Positions 8,636 to 22,311 of a stretch of 64,000 nucleotides of DNA are shown here, piece after piece; the stretch's first letter is position 1; each line of letters opens with the position of its first letter. A program made the position numbers and the translations under genes. The notes beneath the pieces were generated by a model. That model saw only the letters and a list, made by a program, of their open reading frames with translations. It did no database searches and had not been told where the DNA came from. The DNA comes from Deltaproteobacteria bacterium (GTDB lineage: Bacteria > Myxococcota_A > Polyangia > Polyangiales > JADJMO01). Where the stretch lies: positions 1-64,000 of the forward strand of contig JANYDK010000061.1 of NCBI GenBank assembly GCA_025363655.1, in the 5' to 3' direction.

Positions 8636-10117
8636 CTACCTCAACAAATGTTTGGCGACTCTCTCCGTCGCGGTCCGCGGCAACGCGTCGCGTACGTGCA
8701 TCGCCATCGGCACCTTGAAGTCGGCCAGCCGCTCCTTCGCCCACGACGTCAGCGCCGCGAGATCGAGGCTCGTTCCGGCCTCGGGCACGACGTAGGCGAC
8801 GATGTCCTCCTCGCCGAGATCACTGGGGACGCCGATCACCGCGGCTTCGCGGACGCCGGGGAAGCTCGCGAGCACGCCTTCGATTTCGGCGGCGGTGACG
8901 TTCTCTCCGCGACGACGAATCACGTCTTTTTTGCGGGAAATGAAGGTGAAGAAGCCGTCTTGGTCGCGGCGCACCAAGTCGCCGGTGTGAAGGAAGCCGC
9001 CTTCGAGCGCGACCTTCGTCTGCGCCTCGTCGCGGAAGTAGCCGACCATCGTGCCGGGGTTCGCGAGCCATAGCTCACCGGTCTCGCCGTCGCCCGCCTC
9101 GGCGCCATCGTCGCGAACGACGCGGGCGCGGTTCTGCACGCCGAGGCTCGGGTGCTGACGAAGGGTACCCATCGTTCCGTAGCGGGCTGGCTCGCCGCGT
9201 GGCCAAACGGTGCCGAACGTAGTTTCGCTCATGCCATAGCCGACCGTCAGCGAGACGCCGAAGCGTGCTTCGAAGGCGCGATGAGTCGGCTCGGGGAGCG
9301 CGAGGGCGCCGTAGACGCAACGGACCGCGTGCGCGCGATCGGCGTCGCGGGGTTCGGTGCGGAGCATGATGTGCATCATCGCGCCGACGGTGTTGAACTG
9401 CGTCGCGCCGAGCGCACGCGCCTCGTCCCAGAAGCGCGAAGCGGAGAAACGCGGGAGGATCGCCAGCGAGCCGCGAGCGAGCGCGCCCATCGTCGAGTAG
9501 GCCTGCGCGTTGATGTGGAAGTACGGCAGCGTCGCCAGCAGACGATCGTCGTCTCCGAGGCCGAGCCAATGGGGAAATGCTTCGGCGGTGAGCGCGTAGG
9601 TGCGATGCGTCTGCATCACGGCCTTGGGCGCGCCGGTGGTGCCGGAGGTGGCGATGAGCACGCAGACGTCGTCGGGCAAGACGAGCACCGAGGGAGCGAT
9701 GCCGTCTTCGGGGAGCCTCGACGACGTCACGAGGACCGGCCGCTGCTCGCTCGGAAGCTCGGAAATCGCCGTCTCGACGAGCGCGCGATGCTCGTCGACG
9801 ACGAAGACTCGCGGTGTCATCAAGCGGAGGAGACCGACCAGCTCGGCCTGCTTGTGCGCGGGGTTGAGCATGCAGGCGACGGCGCCGAGCCGATTGGCGC
9901 CGAGCCACGAAAAGAGCGTCTCCGGCCGATTGCCGAGCATCACCGCGACGCGATCGCCCTTCGTCACGCCACGCTGCGCGAGGCCGACGGCGAAGCGTTC
10001 GACCTCACGCGAGACGTCCCCGAGCGTCCAGGACGAGCCCTCGTAGAAGAGCCACGACCGGGACGGCTCGCGCGACGCACGCCACGCGAGCAGCTCGGGG
10101 ATGGTCGAGGGAAACAT
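8636..10117 (-). CDS. AMP-binding acyl-CoA ligase, crotonobetaine/carnitine-CoA ligase-like
   Basis: A 493-residue adenylate-forming enzyme. Motifs: P-loop ATSGTTGAPKAVMQTHR, YFHINAQ, YGMSETTFG, a GYF segment, GFLHTGDLVRRD, SRKKDVIRRRGENV and a C-terminal KVPMAMHVRDALPRTATERV. The HINAQAY motif and end are typical of the CaiC-like group. Reaction: acid + ATP + CoA to acyl-CoA + AMP + PPi. Oddity: the C-terminal catalytic-lysine motif normally reads T-G-K or T-E-K but here T-E-R, so the usual Lys is replaced by Arg. It lies 63 bp downstream of the GST gene on the same strand and may share its transcript. The substrate is not predictable; a role in catabolic CoA activation fits the aromatic-degradation-like fusion nearby. 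Confidence 0.88.
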   Translation of the reverse strand: MFPSTIPELLAWRASREPSRSWLFYEGSSWTLGDVSREVERFAVGLAQRGVTKGDRVAVMLGNRPETLFSWLGANRLGAVACMLNPAHKQAELVGLLRLMTPRVFVVDEHRALVETAISELPSEQRPVLVTSSRLPEDGIAPSVLVLPDDVCVLIATSGTTGAPKAVMQTHRTYALTAEAFPHWLGLGDDDRLLATLPYFHINAQAYSTMGALARGSLAILPRFSASRFWDEARALGATQFNTVGAMMHIMLRTEPRDADRAHAVRCVYGALALPEPTHRAFEARFGVSLTVGYGMSETTFGTVWPRGEPARYGTMGTLRQHPSLGVQNRARVVRDDGAEAGDGETGELWLANPGTMVGYFRDEAQTKVALEGGFLHTGDLVRRDQDGFFTFISRKKDVIRRRGENVTAAEIEGVLASFPGVREAAVIGVPSDLGEEDIVAYVVPEAGTSLDLAALTSWAKERLADFKVPMAMHVRDALPRTATERVAKHLLR

Positions 10118-10152: not shown

Positions 10153-10184
10153 CTGATCAACTGATCAACTGATCAACTGATCAA
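10153..10184. repeat. Octanucleotide tandem repeat CTGATCAA x4
   Basis: Four perfect CTGATCAA units followed by a partial CTGATG. Each unit contains the palindrome TGATCA. The array overlaps the GST stop codon (10181-10183), so on the minus strand the stop is in the first unit and changes in copy number downstream would not alter the protein. It fills half of the 63-bp gap to the acyl-CoA ligase gene. Confidence 0.8.
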
Positions 10185-10855
10185 CTGATGGTCACGAACG
10201 GCTTGCCCTTGAGCGAGCCCGCGAAGCCGTCGAACACCTCGTTGACCTTCTTCCACGTCGGCAGCGCGCGCATCGTCCCCATCCAGCGATCGACGTTGGG
10301 GTAGCTCTTGAAGCTGACGCCGATGAGATCGCCGACGCCGAGGATTTCAGCCCCGAAATAGTCGGCGATGGTGATGTCGTCACCACACAGATACTTCTTG
10401 CTGCCGAGCACCTTGGTGTCGAGGAGCTTGAGCCAGTGTTCGGTCTTCTCCTTGCCCCAGGCGACCGTCGCCGCTTGCACGGCGTCGTCCTTACGATGGT
10501 GACCAGGGAAGACCTGCGGATAGATGAGGTGATAGCCCCACTCGCGATAGTGATTGGTGTTGATCCAATCCATCACTTCGTTGACGTGGGCGCGCTTCTT
10601 CAGGTCCTTCGGGTAGGCAGGCGAACCGACTTTGTCGGCGAGATACTTGAGAATCGCCGAAGACTCGGTGAGGACGAAGCCCTCGTCCTCGAGCACCGGC
10701 ACCTGCATCGTCGGGTTGAGCTCGTTGAAGGGCGCCTTCATGTGCGCGCCGGTCATGATGTCGACGATCACCGGTTCGTAGGCGATGCCAGCCTCGGCGC
10801 AGAAGAGGGTGACGGTGCGTGAGGTGGTGGAGGCAGGGTGGAAATGCAGCTTCAT
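10181..10855 (-). CDS. Glutathione S-transferase family protein
   Basis: A 224-residue GST. The N-terminal thioredoxin-like domain has STTSRTVTLFCAEAGI, the cis-Pro QVPVLEDEGF and the glutathione-gamma-glutamyl-binding TESSAILKYLADK; the C-terminal helical domain carries the N-capping motif ITIADYFGA. The active residue is expected to be one of the early Ser/Thr (theta/zeta style). The ATG at 10853-10855 has GAGGAG about 8 bases upstream, which decides the start over the longer frame. It is divergent from, and 82 bp away from, the maleylacetate reductase/dioxygenase fusion. Zeta-class GSTs isomerise maleylacetoacetate, the product of homogentisate dioxygenase, so an isomerase role in the same pathway is attractive. 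The zeta signature is not clear, however, so this is an inference. Confidence 0.85.
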   Translation of the reverse strand: MKLHFHPASTTSRTVTLFCAEAGIAYEPVIVDIMTGAHMKAPFNELNPTMQVPVLEDEGFVLTESSAILKYLADKVGSPAYPKDLKKRAHVNEVMDWINTNHYREWGYHLIYPQVFPGHHRKDDAVQAATVAWGKEKTEHWLKLLDTKVLGSKKYLCGDDITIADYFGAEILGVGDLIGVSFKSYPNVDRWMGTMRALPTWKKVNEVFDGFAGSLKGKPFVTIS

Positions 10856-10937
10856 GCTCGGGCTCCTCGTCGATGAATTATGATTGCGGAGCGCGGATGG
10901 TAGGCGGCGATGCCCATCCCAACAAGGCGAGGAACGC

Positions 10938-13343
10938 ATGACACGACACTTCATCGTTCGACGCGGCGCGACGAAGATCGTCTTCGGCGCCGGCACGTCC
11001 GATGCGGGAATCAGCGCTGAAATCGAGGCCATCGGCGTTTCCCGCGTGTTTGTCGTCGGCACGCCGGGACGAGCCTCTGACGTGACTGCCGTCGTCGCTC
11101 GGCTCGGTGAGCGCGCCGTCGGGACCTTCACGCAGGCGCGCGAGCACGTCCCCGTCGAGACGGTGCGTGAGGCGCAGCTCGCGATCGATCAGCTTCCCAC
11201 AGGGGACGTCGACGCCGTGCTCGCCTTGGGCGGCGGTTCGGCGATCGGCCTCGCCAAGGCGCTCGCGTTGCAAAATGCGGTGCGCATCGTCGCCGTGCCG
11301 AGCACCTACTCGGGCTCCGAAATGACGCCGATCTACGGCACCACCGAGGGCGGGCAAAAACGCACTGGACGCGACGAGCGCGTGCGCCCGGCCCTCGTGA
11401 TTTACGACCCCGATCGCACCGCCGGCCTTCCGCACAGCGTGGCGATGACCAGCCTGTGGAACGCGATGGCGCACGCCGTCGAGGCGCTGTGGGTGAACGC
11501 CGACGATCGAGCAGCGTCACTCGTCGCCGAAGACGCGCTCCGCCTTCTCGCGACGGGAATGCGACGGCTGGCCGTAAAGCTCGACGACGCGAATGCGGGT
11601 GAACTTGCGCTCGAAGGCGCCTACCTCGCGGGTGCATGCTTCGCCGACAGCGGCGCCGGGCTGCATCACAAGCTCTGTCACGTGCTCGGGGGAATGTTCG
11701 ATCTTCCCCACGCGGCGACGCACGCCGTCATGTTGCCGCACGTGGTTCGATTCCATCGCGAGGCCGCTCCCGAGGCGATGAACGCGATCGCTCGCGCGCT
11801 CGGCGTCGTCGATCCGCTCCTCGGTCTCGATCGCCTCGCGGTGACGACGGGCGTACCCCGCTCACTCGCGGCGGTGGGCATGCCACGCGACGGCATCGCC
11901 CGCGTGGTCGCCGTGATGATGGCGACGCCGGCGCTCACGCCGCGAACACTCGAGAGGGAGGCACTGACCGCGATGCTCGAAACGGCACAAAAAAAGCCAC
12001 GAAACAGCGCACCCAACGGCACCTTGCGCGGACCGGCGATCCTCGCGACGCAGCCCGGCTTCGGCAGCACGCACACCTCCGAGGCGCTCGAGGGCGCGCT
12101 GCCGCCGCGAGGAAACGCGCCGCGCATTTGTCCATACGGCCTCCTCCCCGAGTTGGTCAACGGCACGCCGTTCACGGTACGCAACGTCGACAACTCACGC
12201 GTCTGGCTCTATCGCGTGCGCGCGTCGTTCTCACATGGCGAGCACTCGCCGTTGCCGCACGCGAGCTTCCTCTCGCCCCTCGCCGAGGTCACGCCCAACC
12301 GCACCCGCTGGCGACCGCAACCCGTCCCTCCTGCCGATGCGCGCGTCGATTTCGTCGACGGCCTCGCGACGCTCGGTGGCGCCGGCGATGCGACGAGCGG
12401 TCCTGGCTACCTCGTGCACCTCTACGCCGCCAACGCCGACATGAGCGATCGCGCGTTCTCCAGCGCCGACGGCGATCTCCTGATCGTCCCACAAACAGGC
12501 ACGATCGAGTGTCGCACCGAGCTCGGTTGGCTGCGCGTTCCCGTCGGCTCGTTCGCGATCATCCCGCGTGGCATCAAGTTCGCCATCGGCTTTGCCGAAG
12601 GTGAAGGCCGCGGCTGGATGCTCGAGGTCTTCGGACGTCGCTTTCGTCTCCCCGAGCGCGGACCGATCGGCAGCAACGGCCTCGCCGATGCGCGTCACTT
12701 CCTCGCGCCGACGGCGTCCTACGAAGATCGCCTCTGCCCCGCCGGCTTCGAGCACGTCACCAAGGTCGGCGGACATCTCTACGCGGCGACGCAAGAACAC
12801 TCGCCCTTCGACGTCGTCGCCTGGCACGGCGTGCACGTGCCCTTCGTCTACGACCTCGCCAATTTCTGCCCGATGGGCTCGGTGAAGTTCGATCATCCAG
12901 ACCCGTCGATCCTCACCGTGCTCACCGCGCCGCTCGACGATCACGGCCGCGCCATCGCTGATTTCGTGGCGTTTCCTGGTCGTTGGGACGTCCTCGAACA
13001 AAGCTTTCGCCCGCCCTTCGCCCATCGCAACGCCGCCGCCGAGATCAACGGCGTCGTCCGGGTGAGCAAGGCAGAGCACGGCTACGATCCGGGGTGCACG
13101 TTCGTCACGCCGCTCCTCAGCGCGCACGGCGTCTCGACCGCGACCTACGATTGGGTCTGGGGCCTCCCCGAAGAGAAGGCCGAGGGGCCGATGCGTCTCT
13201 CCGACGAGTCGCTGTGGATCATGTTCGAATCGGCGATGCCCTTCCGCCTCAGCGCGTGGGCGAAAGGCTCCCCGCTCGTCGACCGCGATTTCGGCAGGCT
13301 CTTTTCGGGCATGAAATCGCGCTTCGATCCGCACAAGAGGTGA
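10938..13343 (+). CDS. Fusion of maleylacetate reductase and homogentisate 1,2-dioxygenase-like enzyme
   Basis: An 801-residue protein in one uninterrupted frame; ATG at 10938 with an AAGGCGAGGA ribosome site. Residues 1-350 are an iron-containing-ADH-fold maleylacetate reductase: GGGSAIGLAKA, PSTYSGSEMTPIYGTTEGG, RTGRDERV, NAMAHAVEALW, HHKLCHVLGG and FDLPHAATHAVMLPH. Residues about 365-801 are a cupin homogentisate dioxygenase: QPGFGSTHTSEALEGALP, PYGLLPELVNG, FAIIPRGIKF, SPFDVVAWHG, FDHPDPSILTVLTA and HRN..AE. The iron ligands align as His696, Glu702 and His730. The reductase part normally turns maleylacetate into 3-oxoadipate; the dioxygenase part opens homogentisate. These belong to different pathways, so the joint substrate is uncertain. 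A GST gene is divergent upstream. Confidence 0.9.
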   Translation: MTRHFIVRRGATKIVFGAGTSDAGISAEIEAIGVSRVFVVGTPGRASDVTAVVARLGERAVGTFTQAREHVPVETVREAQLAIDQLPTGDVDAVLALGGGSAIGLAKALALQNAVRIVAVPSTYSGSEMTPIYGTTEGGQKRTGRDERVRPALVIYDPDRTAGLPHSVAMTSLWNAMAHAVEALWVNADDRAASLVAEDALRLLATGMRRLAVKLDDANAGELALEGAYLAGACFADSGAGLHHKLCHVLGGMFDLPHAATHAVMLPHVVRFHREAAPEAMNAIARALGVVDPLLGLDRLAVTTGVPRSLAAVGMPRDGIARVVAVMMATPALTPRTLEREALTAMLETAQKKPRNSAPNGTLRGPAILATQPGFGSTHTSEALEGALPPRGNAPRICPYGLLPELVNGTPFTVRNVDNSRVWLYRVRASFSHGEHSPLPHASFLSPLAEVTPNRTRWRPQPVPPADARVDFVDGLATLGGAGDATSGPGYLVHLYAANADMSDRAFSSADGDLLIVPQTGTIECRTELGWLRVPVGSFAIIPRGIKFAIGFAEGEGRGWMLEVFGRRFRLPERGPIGSNGLADARHFLAPTASYEDRLCPAGFEHVTKVGGHLYAATQEHSPFDVVAWHGVHVPFVYDLANFCPMGSVKFDHPDPSILTVLTAPLDDHGRAIADFVAFPGRWDVLEQSFRPPFAHRNAAAEINGVVRVSKAEHGYDPGCTFVTPLLSAHGVSTATYDWVWGLPEEKAEGPMRLSDESLWIMFESAMPFRLSAWAKGSPLVDRDFGRLFSGMKSRFDPHKR

Positions 13344-19520: not shown

Positions 19521-21317
19521 TCACTTCTTCTTGAGCATCGCGTGCCCGACCGCAGCCGTCTTCGTCCCATGCATCCAGACCTTCACCACCACGTCGCCCG
19601 TCGTCTTCGGCACGTCGAACTCCGCCTTCGCGACGCCACCCGTCATCGTCACCTCCTTGGTCGCGATGATCTTGTCGCTGGCCGTCACGTAGTTCTTCTC
19701 CATCGCCTTGAACGCTGCCTCGTTGGTCATCGCGTCGAGGCTCGGCCCATCGACGATCGCTCCTCGAATGACCGATCGACGCGTCTCGAGCGTGATCGTG
19801 GCCTGGGTGACGTCGGCCTTGGTGGTGGCGGTGATCGTCAATGGATCGCCTGATTTTTCAGGTGATTTCACGTCGACCGTCGCCGGCTCCGGGTAGCGCA
19901 AGCGAGACCCTGGGTCGCCGAGGAGGTTGTAGAGGCCCTCGTGCTCTTCTTTGAGCGCGGTCTCGTCGGTGTCGATCAAGAGCTTGGCGACGAGGAGGGA
20001 GGCGTCCTTCACCTGCGCTTCCATCGCGAGGATGCCTTCGCCGACCGTGCGCGGGCGGGCGTCGACGAATTGGTCGATGACGGCTTCGCCGTAGAGCGCG
20101 TTGGGGTACGGGTGGCTCTCGCGGCTGGAGGCGAAGACGCCGATGGGGCCGTCGACGTTGAGGATCATCTCCTCGGCGAGCGACTCGCGGCCATCGAATC
20201 GATCGAAGGCGCCGGTGTCGCAAGCGAACGAGAAGAAGAGCGGTTTTCCCTTGGGAATGCGCAGGCTCTCGGCGTCTTCGGTGGTGCCGATGAAGTAGTA
20301 GTTGCCGTGGAAGTGGATGTCGTCGAACGACCACGACGCGCCATGACCGACGTAGGCGGCGACGAGCGCGCCCTCGTCGAGATCGCTCACCATTTTCTTG
20401 TGGAAGCGATCGAAGGGGAACGCGTAAGGCGAGCCGAGCTTGGCGAAGGTGAAGCGGACGTCGAAGTCGTAGCTGACGTTCTCGTCGAGCAGGCGGTTGG
20501 CCGTCGACTCGATGATGCCGTCGACGGCGGCGCCGTAGTTGGCCGGTCCGGCGAACACCGTCAGGCGTCTGCGCCAGGCGCCACCATCGTCGCTGGTCTC
20601 GTAGTCGACCACCTTCTTCACCATGCCGGCGACGTCGCTGACGTTGTGCGCCGGCATCCGTCCCACGGCGAGACGCTTCGGAGCGGCTTCTTTTCCCGTG
20701 CCTTTCGCTTTCTCCGTGCCGCCGACGATCGAGTACGGGCGATCGGAGGGATAGAGCTCGCCGGTGTGCGCGACCTCGTGCGAGTGCTCGCCGAAAGGAA
20801 ACGGGAGCGGGTGATCGTGCTTGTCGTCCCCGTGATGCTCGTAGTCGAGCTTCGGTAGATAGTGCGTGGGCAGCGGCACGAAGTCGGCGCTCGCTGCCTG
20901 CTTCGGGTTGAGCACGTCGCCGACGAGGAGGACGAAACGGAGCTTGCCGCTGCTGTGGGCATGCACCTTCTCGATCGCGGTGACGAGCGCCGCCGCGTCG
21001 GGCTTCGTCTTCGAGAAGCGCTTGAAGAGGTCTTCGATCGAGAGCATGGCCACGACGTGACCGAGCGACTCGCGATGGGCGACGAGCGGCGCGAGCGCAC
21101 CGCGGTAGGCCTCGTGGGTGAGGACGAGATAGTCGGCGTCCTTCCAACGGCTCCACGACGCGGCGTCGGCGAGCGCTTCTTCGGCGGTCTTGGCGTCGGC
21201 ATCGAGGGAGGTCGGCGACGCCGAGGCCATGTCGCGACGACACCCGAGCGAGACGAGCGACACGAGCGACACGAGCGACACGAGCGACGAGACGTTGGTG
21301 ACGGCGCGGAGGCGCAT
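19521..21317 (-). CDS. Gingipain-type (C25) cysteine peptidase lipoprotein
   Basis: A 598-residue protein. The ATG at 21315-21317 is chosen because it opens a lipoprotein signal whose core is a repeated SLV tripeptide ending SLGC; the longer frame upstream lacks signal character. The peptidase domain contains YLVLTHEAYRGALAPLVAHR, VLLVGDV, the catalytic His in AAYVGHGASWSF (His325) and the catalytic Cys in FSFACDTGAFD (Cys366), matching the His-Cys dyad of family C25. A C-terminal beta domain of about 110 residues follows (TITATTKADVTQATITLE ...), like the Ig-like domain of gingipains. There is no Por-type secretion domain; a lipid anchor replaces it. Probable role: surface or periplasmic proteolysis. 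Confidence 0.87.
   Translation of the reverse strand: MRLRAVTNVSSLVSLVSLVSLVSLGCRRDMASASPTSLDADAKTAEEALADAASWSRWKDADYLVLTHEAYRGALAPLVAHRESLGHVVAMLSIEDLFKRFSKTKPDAAALVTAIEKVHAHSSGKLRFVLLVGDVLNPKQAASADFVPLPTHYLPKLDYEHHGDDKHDHPLPFPFGEHSHEVAHTGELYPSDRPYSIVGGTEKAKGTGKEAAPKRLAVGRMPAHNVSDVAGMVKKVVDYETSDDGGAWRRRLTVFAGPANYGAAVDGIIESTANRLLDENVSYDFDVRFTFAKLGSPYAFPFDRFHKKMVSDLDEGALVAAYVGHGASWSFDDIHFHGNYYFIGTTEDAESLRIPKGKPLFFSFACDTGAFDRFDGRESLAEEMILNVDGPIGVFASSRESHPYPNALYGEAVIDQFVDARPRTVGEGILAMEAQVKDASLLVAKLLIDTDETALKEEHEGLYNLLGDPGSRLRYPEPATVDVKSPEKSGDPLTITATTKADVTQATITLETRRSVIRGAIVDGPSLDAMTNEAAFKAMEKNYVTASDKIIATKEVTMTGGVAKAEFDVPKTTGDVVVKVWMHGTKTAAVGHAMLKKK
21246..21290 (-). repeat. 9-bp tandem repeat encoding the signal-peptide core of the C25 peptidase
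   Basis: Five 9-bp units (plus-strand consensus GAGCGACAC; three perfect, two variant) run from 21246 to 21290 inside the signal peptide of the C25 peptidase. On the coding strand each unit encodes Ser-Leu-Val. Copy-number change would lengthen or shorten the hydrophobic core by three residues without breaking the frame. Confidence 0.85.
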
Positions 21318-21411
21318 TGGCGGGAGGATACCCTTCTGGTCCTGATTCGCGGGCTCGCCGGTCGTGCGACCGCCATGAAGGCCGCGCAAGCCGTGTAAGC
21401 TCGAAGGGCAG

Positions 21412-22311
21412 ATGCGCGTTGCACCGGCCGTGAACGAGCACGCGAAGGCGCCGATTCCACGTGGCCTCTTCTCGCCGGCCCCGCTGGCGGCGATCTTCAT
21501 CTTGCTGCTCAACGATCACGTCCTCAAGGGCGCGCAGGTTCTTCCGAGCTGGCTCACGGGCAAGCTCTCGGACGTCGCGGGGCTCTTCTTCTTCCCCGTG
21601 CTGCTCGTCGAGCTCGCCGCTCGTATCGGTGGGATCGATGCGCGCGCGCGTTCACGCCACACGCTCATCGTCGCATCGATCGCAACGGCGCTCGTTTTTA
21701 CGGCCATCAAGACGATCGCGCCGATCAACGCGATGGCGTCGAGCTTGCTCGGGGCGATGGTGCTCGATCCGACCGACCTCGTCGCGCTGCCGTCGACGGT
21801 GCTCGCCACCTTCTGGATGTCGCGTGCAGGGACCGGCCTCTCTCGTATGCCTGCCGTGCACATGCCGCGTCTCGCCCGCGTCGGTGAGCTCGTGACGATG
21901 TTGAGCGCGGCGTTCGCGTCGATCGCGACCTCGGCCATTCACTATCCGCCGTGCCACACGCCCGAAAAACAGCCTCCGCGGCTGGCCTTGAGCGACACCT
22001 GCGTCACCTCCGACGGCGCGCACGTGACCTTGCAAGGCGGCTCGGCGCGGGTGGTCATCGTGCTCCGTGCACAGGCCGGAGCGTGTGAGGTCGGCGCCGA
22101 GTCGCTCGCCTTCGAATACGACGTCGACGGCGCTCACGCGATCGTCCACGTGCCGACGCCTACGGCCGCCAACGTCCAGCAAGAAACCACCCTCGATCTG
22201 CCGGTGCCGCTCCCCTACCCCACGCACTGCAAAGGTCTGGCGACGCACTTCGAGCTTCGACTCGATGCGCGCCTCGAGCTGCCGATCGCCGGCTGCACGG
22301 AGGGAACTTGA
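21412..22311 (+). CDS. Multi-pass membrane protein with C-terminal extracytoplasmic domain, unknown function
   Basis: A 299-residue protein starting at ATG 21412 with AAGGGCAG just upstream. The first 190 residues hold about five hydrophobic helices with a distinctive LLNDHVLKG...LPSWLTGKLSDVAGLFFFP block, a pattern I associate with conserved hypothetical membrane proteins of several phyla. The last 110 residues are soluble with six Cys, likely disulfide-bonded outside the membrane. The stop TGA overlaps the TTG start of the next gene, so the two are translationally coupled, and a third gene follows with an ATGA overlap. Function unknown. Confidence 0.75.
   Translation: MRVAPAVNEHAKAPIPRGLFSPAPLAAIFILLLNDHVLKGAQVLPSWLTGKLSDVAGLFFFPVLLVELAARIGGIDARARSRHTLIVASIATALVFTAIKTIAPINAMASSLLGAMVLDPTDLVALPSTVLATFWMSRAGTGLSRMPAVHMPRLARVGELVTMLSAAFASIATSAIHYPPCHTPEKQPPRLALSDTCVTSDGAHVTLQGGSARVVIVLRAQAGACEVGAESLAFEYDVDGAHAIVHVPTPTAANVQQETTLDLPVPLPYPTHCKGLATHFELRLDARLELPIAGCTEGT

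Follow-up and report, generated by a model that had tools for sequence, protein, structure and literature searches.

A fused maleylacetate reductase and homogentisate-dioxygenase-family protein of Myxococcota suggests a one-protein breakdown route for lignin-type hydroquinones

Cleavage of a hydroquinone-type ring followed by the action of a maleylacetate reductase (MAR) is known from the LinE-LinF and PcpA-PcpE pairs, in which the dioxygenases belong to families unrelated to homogentisate dioxygenase (HGD) and the genes are separate. The same succession is seen in HapCD/PnpCD systems with an aldehyde dehydrogenase and a MAR, represented among our loci by L057, a classical hydroquinone-dioxygenase/MAR operon that also carries a CoA-transferase; here too the dioxygenase families are unrelated to HGD and the genes are separate. 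Reduction by MAR acts on maleylacetate-type enone acids, the class of product expected when HGD chemistry is applied to a hydroquinone with an ortho substituent other than carboxymethyl. The known hydroxyquinol dioxygenases are members of the intradiol family, and the mhq dioxygenases MhqO and MhqE also lie outside the HGD family. In mhq operons MhqO or MhqE accompanies MhqD (PMC12673573, PMC6798810), so that a ring-cleaving dioxygenase is paired with a hydrolase, as in some of the proteins described below, but these operons have no MAR and no fusion. In the fungus Aspergillus niger, methoxyhydroquinone is cleaved by the HGD-family enzyme MhdA, which yields 4-hydroxy-6-methoxy-6-oxohexa-2,4-dienoic acid; a MAR-like candidate exists for the reduction that follows, and deletion of omeA, the esterase gene beside mhdA, leads to accumulation of the reduced methyl ester (PMC8336404).

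In the window, i.e. the whole 64,000-nucleotide stretch of DNA that was analysed, a MAR and an HGD-family bicupin are encoded together in one uninterrupted frame (Table 1). The original prediction of such a frame was borne out by the open reading frame, Pfam and PDB matches and the predicted fold. The gene starts with the ATG at 10938, with a GAGGA about 5 bases upstream, and its product matches the Pfam families Fe-ADH (residues 12-158), ADH_Fe_C (170-350), HgmA_N (372-640) and HgmA_C (642-796). The solved structures nearest in sequence to the N-terminal half are MARs and their near kin (3jzd, 3w5s and 3hl0, with E values of about 1e-73 to 1e-80). With 3w5s, a MAR of the GraC type, it shares about 40% identity together with motifs and fold, but the MAR of the window is joined to a ring-cleaving enzyme, whereas MARs are free-standing elsewhere. 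Motif alignment located GGGSAIGLAKA, GSEMTPIYG and HHKLCHVLGG in this half; with the Fe-ADH fold, the MAR-type motifs and solved MARs as nearest structures all present, we assign it by fold and motifs as a putative maleylacetate reductase.

For the C-terminal half, the nearest solved structures by sequence are the homogentisate dioxygenases 1ey2 and 3zds, and also 4aq2. The AlphaFold model of the whole fusion protein has a mean pLDDT of 79 and a pTM of 0.56 and is weak at residues 683-698, the stretch that holds the Fe ligand His696. A fold search with this model returned 4aq2 as the best match for the HGD half and 3w5s for the MAR half. The three metal-ligand positions named beforehand were confirmed by alignment to the human enzyme. 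Judged from sequence and model, both halves of the fusion are intact members of their families.

Table 1. Coordinates of the fusion gene, its parts and its neighbours in the window
Feature	Position	Strand	Details
AMP-forming acyl-CoA ligase	8636..10117	-	493 aa
Glutathione S-transferase (GST)	10181..10855	-	224 aa; divergent from fusion
Shared divergent intergenic region, fusion/GST	10856..10937	.	82 bases
MAR-HGD fusion gene	10938..13343	+	801 aa; stop within coordinates; 801 codons open
Maleylacetate reductase (MAR) half, putative	10938..11993	+	residues 1-352; Pfam, PDB relatives, motif alignment
Linker	11994..12050	+	residues 353-371; weakly conserved
HGD-family bicupin	12051..13328	+	residues 372-797; Pfam, TIGR01015, PDB, fold
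Codon of His696, Fe ligand (= human His335)	13023..13025	+	alignment
Codon of Glu702, Fe ligand (= human Glu341)	13041..13043	+	alignment
Altered substrate loop	13068..13109	+	Lys711 and 2-residue deletion at Tyr350 (GxYDAK); Thr724 at His365
Codon of His730, Fe ligand (= human His371)	13125..13127	+	alignment

A sequencing error or missed stop at about position 12000, which had been named as a possible artefact, is ruled out, because the frame continues through both halves in eight further Myxococcota genomes with the same MAR-HGD order, at 45-76% identity. Including that of the window, nine Myxococcota genomes thus carry this short form in one frame (the other loci are L032/L078, L033, L034/L081, L035, L036, L079, L080 and L082). 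Comparison with three relatives gave dN/dS values of about 0.2 to 0.5 for the MAR and HGD halves, i.e. purifying selection on each, and a linker far more divergent than either. Two joined genes were rejected as an explanation on the grounds of this selection and of the recurrence in nine genomes. Within the window gene an in-frame ATG at 11973 (codon 346), with a GGAGG about 11 bases upstream, could yield a free HGD product. This ATG is kept in only one of five relatives checked, the closest one (L078), and there the GGAGG is absent; a second, HGD-only product is therefore possible but not supported by the sequences compared.

A longer version of the protein, with the order MAR-esterase-HGD and about 1000-1030 residues in one frame, is encoded in 11 further Myxococcota genomes, and three additional cases of it are interrupted by contig ends. 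The insert of about 200 residues sits at the linker position between MAR and HGD. A first guess that it might be a GST or maleylacetoacetate isomerase was rejected: Pfam assigns it to the Abhydrolase_2 alpha/beta hydrolases, its HGRG and GFSQG motifs are conserved, and so is the Ser-Asp-His catalytic triad in the 11 genomes. Split versions also occur, either as MAR-esterase and then HGD (L051) or as MAR and then directly HGD (L019, L050), and in two genomes (G143, G301) MAR and HGD are neighbouring separate genes. No fusion was found among 398 Pseudomonadota and 396 Actinomycetota genomes, in which the MAR and HGD families occur apart; these counts are samples, from which absence elsewhere does not follow. 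The plasmid collection contained zero fused copies. The scan of GTDB contigs was made with one query protein and reaches close relatives only.

The joining of HGD and MAR had been called biochemically puzzling. It is not, since A. niger pairs HGD-family cleavage with an apparent MAR-like reduction on the route from methoxyhydroquinone (PMC8336404). Compared with MhdA, the reductase and OmeA, the long fusions hold all three activities (HGD-family cleavage, MAR-type reduction and esterase) in one chain. The fungal genes, in contrast, are separate, the window form has no esterase, and the likeness to MhdA is drawn from activity. The original prediction knew of no described fusion of these two families, and we likewise found none in the open-licence papers searched, nor a paper on bacterial cleavage of methoxyhydroquinone by an HGD-like enzyme. 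Among those papers, no description appears to exist of the fusion, of the form with the inserted esterase or of the altered dioxygenase clade.

The fused dioxygenase is about 40-47% identical to canonical homogentisate 1,2-dioxygenases. In common with HmgA/HGD (1ey2, 3zds, 4aq2) it has the fold, the Fe ligands and the second-shell His292; it differs in the absence of Tyr350 and His365 (human numbering), the loop deletion, the fusion to MAR and its separate clade. Phylogenetic analysis of 52 HGDs placed the fused enzymes together with their split relatives in a single clade (100/100 support) that excludes the human, P. putida, Streptomyces, Sphingomonas, Lysobacteraceae and canonical myxobacterial HGDs. 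The short form of the window clade makes a separate branch inside it. Trees of MAR and HGD show the same three main groups, as would be expected if the halves evolved together. Throughout the clade His292 is kept, as are the three Fe ligands except in L054, where Tyr takes the place of His371; Tyr350 is absent in every member, the loop is shortened in nearly all, and position 365 is Thr or Ser. His365 and Tyr350, the latter within a loop of the GxYDAK type, are both present in all canonical HGDs compared. Although the window protein has the HgmA_N and HgmA_C domains and the 2-His-1-Glu Fe ligands, it scores 428.6 bits against a cut-off of 510.75 for TIGR01015, the HmgA equivalog, and in the tree it falls outside the canonical HGDs.

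Contact of homogentisate with Tyr346, the P. putida equivalent of Tyr350, is stated to close the active-site loop (PMC6337169). The residue-level differences in the fused HGDs suggest, at the level of sequence, a changed specificity, and proteins that would be annotated as homogentisate dioxygenase probably are not. The loss of the two residues alone cannot exclude homogentisate, because 9pz4, a solved structure deposited as homogentisate dioxygenase, also has neither, and it falls outside the fused clade in the tree. Two further HGD-like proteins came to light in the searches. One, at L071 (3670-4983), retains none of the Fe ligands and not the second-shell His either, these positions being occupied by Gln, Arg, Ser and Arg; a LysR-type regulator gene is divergent from it, and the protein is possibly a dead enzyme or a sensor. 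The other is a Stenotrophomonas-like HGD on a contig named Bacillus subtilis SK7B5 (L113, JAHREJ010000041.1), most likely an assembly contamination.

The case of 9pz4 is among the points that favour a variant homogentisate pathway, in which the HGD half would give maleylacetoacetate, the MAR half would reduce the double bond of this compound to give succinylacetoacetate, and hydrolysis, in the long form by the esterase, would follow, by-passing the isomerase and fumarylacetoacetase. MAR acts on a comparable enone acid. Such a route is possible in the window genome, since it has an HPPD-like gene (just below the cut-off) and the fused HGD is its sole HGD; it also has no fumarylacetoacetase above the family cut-off (TIGR01266). 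The last point says little, however, because Myxococcota genomes with a canonical HGD miss that model too, and HPPD is widespread in both groups and hence a weak marker of the homogentisate route. Against this pathway, the homogentisate-contacting Tyr and His365 are gone across the whole clade, a canonical HGD is retained alongside the fused one in four genomes (G188, G372, G343 and G252), and no HPPD was found in four fusion genomes (G363, G322, G074 and G214). We regard it as unlikely. The loss of Tyr and of the second-shell His, together with the co-occurring canonical HGD, instead supports the earlier proposal that the dioxygenase is not one for homogentisate and passes a maleylacetate-type product to the reductase.

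On balance the evidence leans, if only modestly, towards a bifunctional enzyme whose HGD half opens the ring of some substituted hydroquinone, though not of homogentisate, and whose fused MAR reduces the product toward 3-oxoadipate. We infer the substrate, regiochemistry, order of steps and hand-over between the active sites as follows. The C-terminal Fe(II) bicupin would act on a substituted hydroquinone (para-diphenol) without the carboxymethyl group of homogentisate and open the ring by a cut between the OH-bearing carbon and the substituted carbon next to it, giving a maleylacetate-type enone acid. With NADH as reductant, the fused N-terminal reductase would then turn this acid into a product of the 3-oxoadipate type. 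When the ring substituent is methoxy, a methyl ester would be left, to be hydrolysed in the long form by the inserted esterase, so that 2-methoxyhydroquinone would be taken through methyl maleylacetate and 3-oxoadipate methyl ester to 3-oxoadipate. Genes for 3-oxoacid CoA-transferase A/B directly follow the esterase-HGD frame in L044 and a lone HGD in L045, and, as mentioned above, a CoA-transferase is also present in L057.

The short form of the window may turn hydroxyquinol directly into maleylacetate or may rely on an esterase acting in trans. No full homologue of the inserted esterase was found in the window genome, where the best match is only 31% identical. Its substrate may thus be hydroxyquinol, another substituted hydroquinone, or methoxyhydroquinone handled with an unrelated esterase. 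A division of labour in which the short form is a hydroxyquinol enzyme, in keeping with the earlier proposal, and the long form a methoxyhydroquinone enzyme is a sub-case of the preferred reading. It would fit with C1-C2 cleavage of hydroxyquinol, which would yield maleylacetate directly and make an esterase unnecessary, with the lack of an esterase in the window clade and of a close homologue in the window genome, and with the separate branch that this clade forms. The loop residues, on the other hand, are nearly alike in short and long forms, and no HGD-family hydroxyquinol dioxygenase is described in the papers found. We consider this division rather unlikely. The esterase of the longer relatives points to methoxyhydroquinone at least as much as to hydroxyquinol.

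Genes next to the fusion bear on its physiological role. The divergent GST had been proposed as an isomerase. Its conservation and divergent orientation were upheld, with GST genes beside the fusion in L033, L034, L080 and L082 and less similar ones in L038 and L040, but identity as maleylacetoacetate isomerase was not, the protein scoring 63.7 bits against a cut-off of 171 for maiA (TIGR01262). The acyl-CoA ligase has an orthologue next to the fusion gene in L032, L079 and L082, and L033 retains a remnant of it. Next to the MAR-esterase-HGD genes of L038, L040, L043 and L046, genes for a related ligase, for a member of the citryl-CoA-lyase family and for a VOC protein of 160 residues occur together, in some with GST; the VOC protein is 65-69% identical across loci. 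In L033 and L034 the ligase and the lyase occur with no VOC gene. This ligase/citryl-CoA lyase/GST/VOC cassette is not needed for the proposed ring-opening route, and the papers searched held nothing useful on citryl-CoA lyase with aromatic catabolism. At L059 (9504-10646) and L060 (9186-10310) a MAR of the divergent long-form group lies beside a VOC gene, in L060 with GST, and there is no HGD; MAR may there serve the VOC cassette with another ring-cleaving enzyme. Further along, the window encodes a gingipain-family peptidase C25 protein (19521-21512; Pfam, 181.6 bits).

The recurrence of GST and VOC genes next to the fusion would also suit a role in quinone detoxification and not growth, in which stress-formed hydroquinones are opened and reduced with GST and VOC as glutathione-dependent partners, similarly to the mhq genes of Bacillus and Staphylococcus with their dioxygenase-hydrolase pairing. 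A gene for pirin, a quercetinase-type cupin, directly adjoins the fusion or a lone HGD of the fused clade in several loci (L035, 11953-12660; L037, 8071-8760; L045, 7450-8820), in line with such a role. Neighbouring genes for a CoA ligase, a citryl-CoA lyase and a CoA-transferase point to carbon use, however, and we consider detoxification quite improbable.

The bifunctional, ring-opening and reducing enzyme that we favour suggests a previously undescribed one-protein breakdown route for lignin-type hydroquinones. More tentatively, and with distinctly less confidence than in the bifunctional enzyme itself, we propose that this family, seen so far only in the phylum Myxococcota, may act on lignin-derived methoxylated hydroquinones with a single polypeptide that opens the ring, reduces the product and, in the long form, also hydrolyses the ester, leading to 3-oxoadipate with no prior O-demethylation. 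The annotation trap set by the homogentisate dioxygenase label on proteins of the fused clade would be corrected. If true, these proteins would represent a compact bacterial means of opening methoxylated or otherwise substituted hydroquinones in which the methyl group is not removed first.
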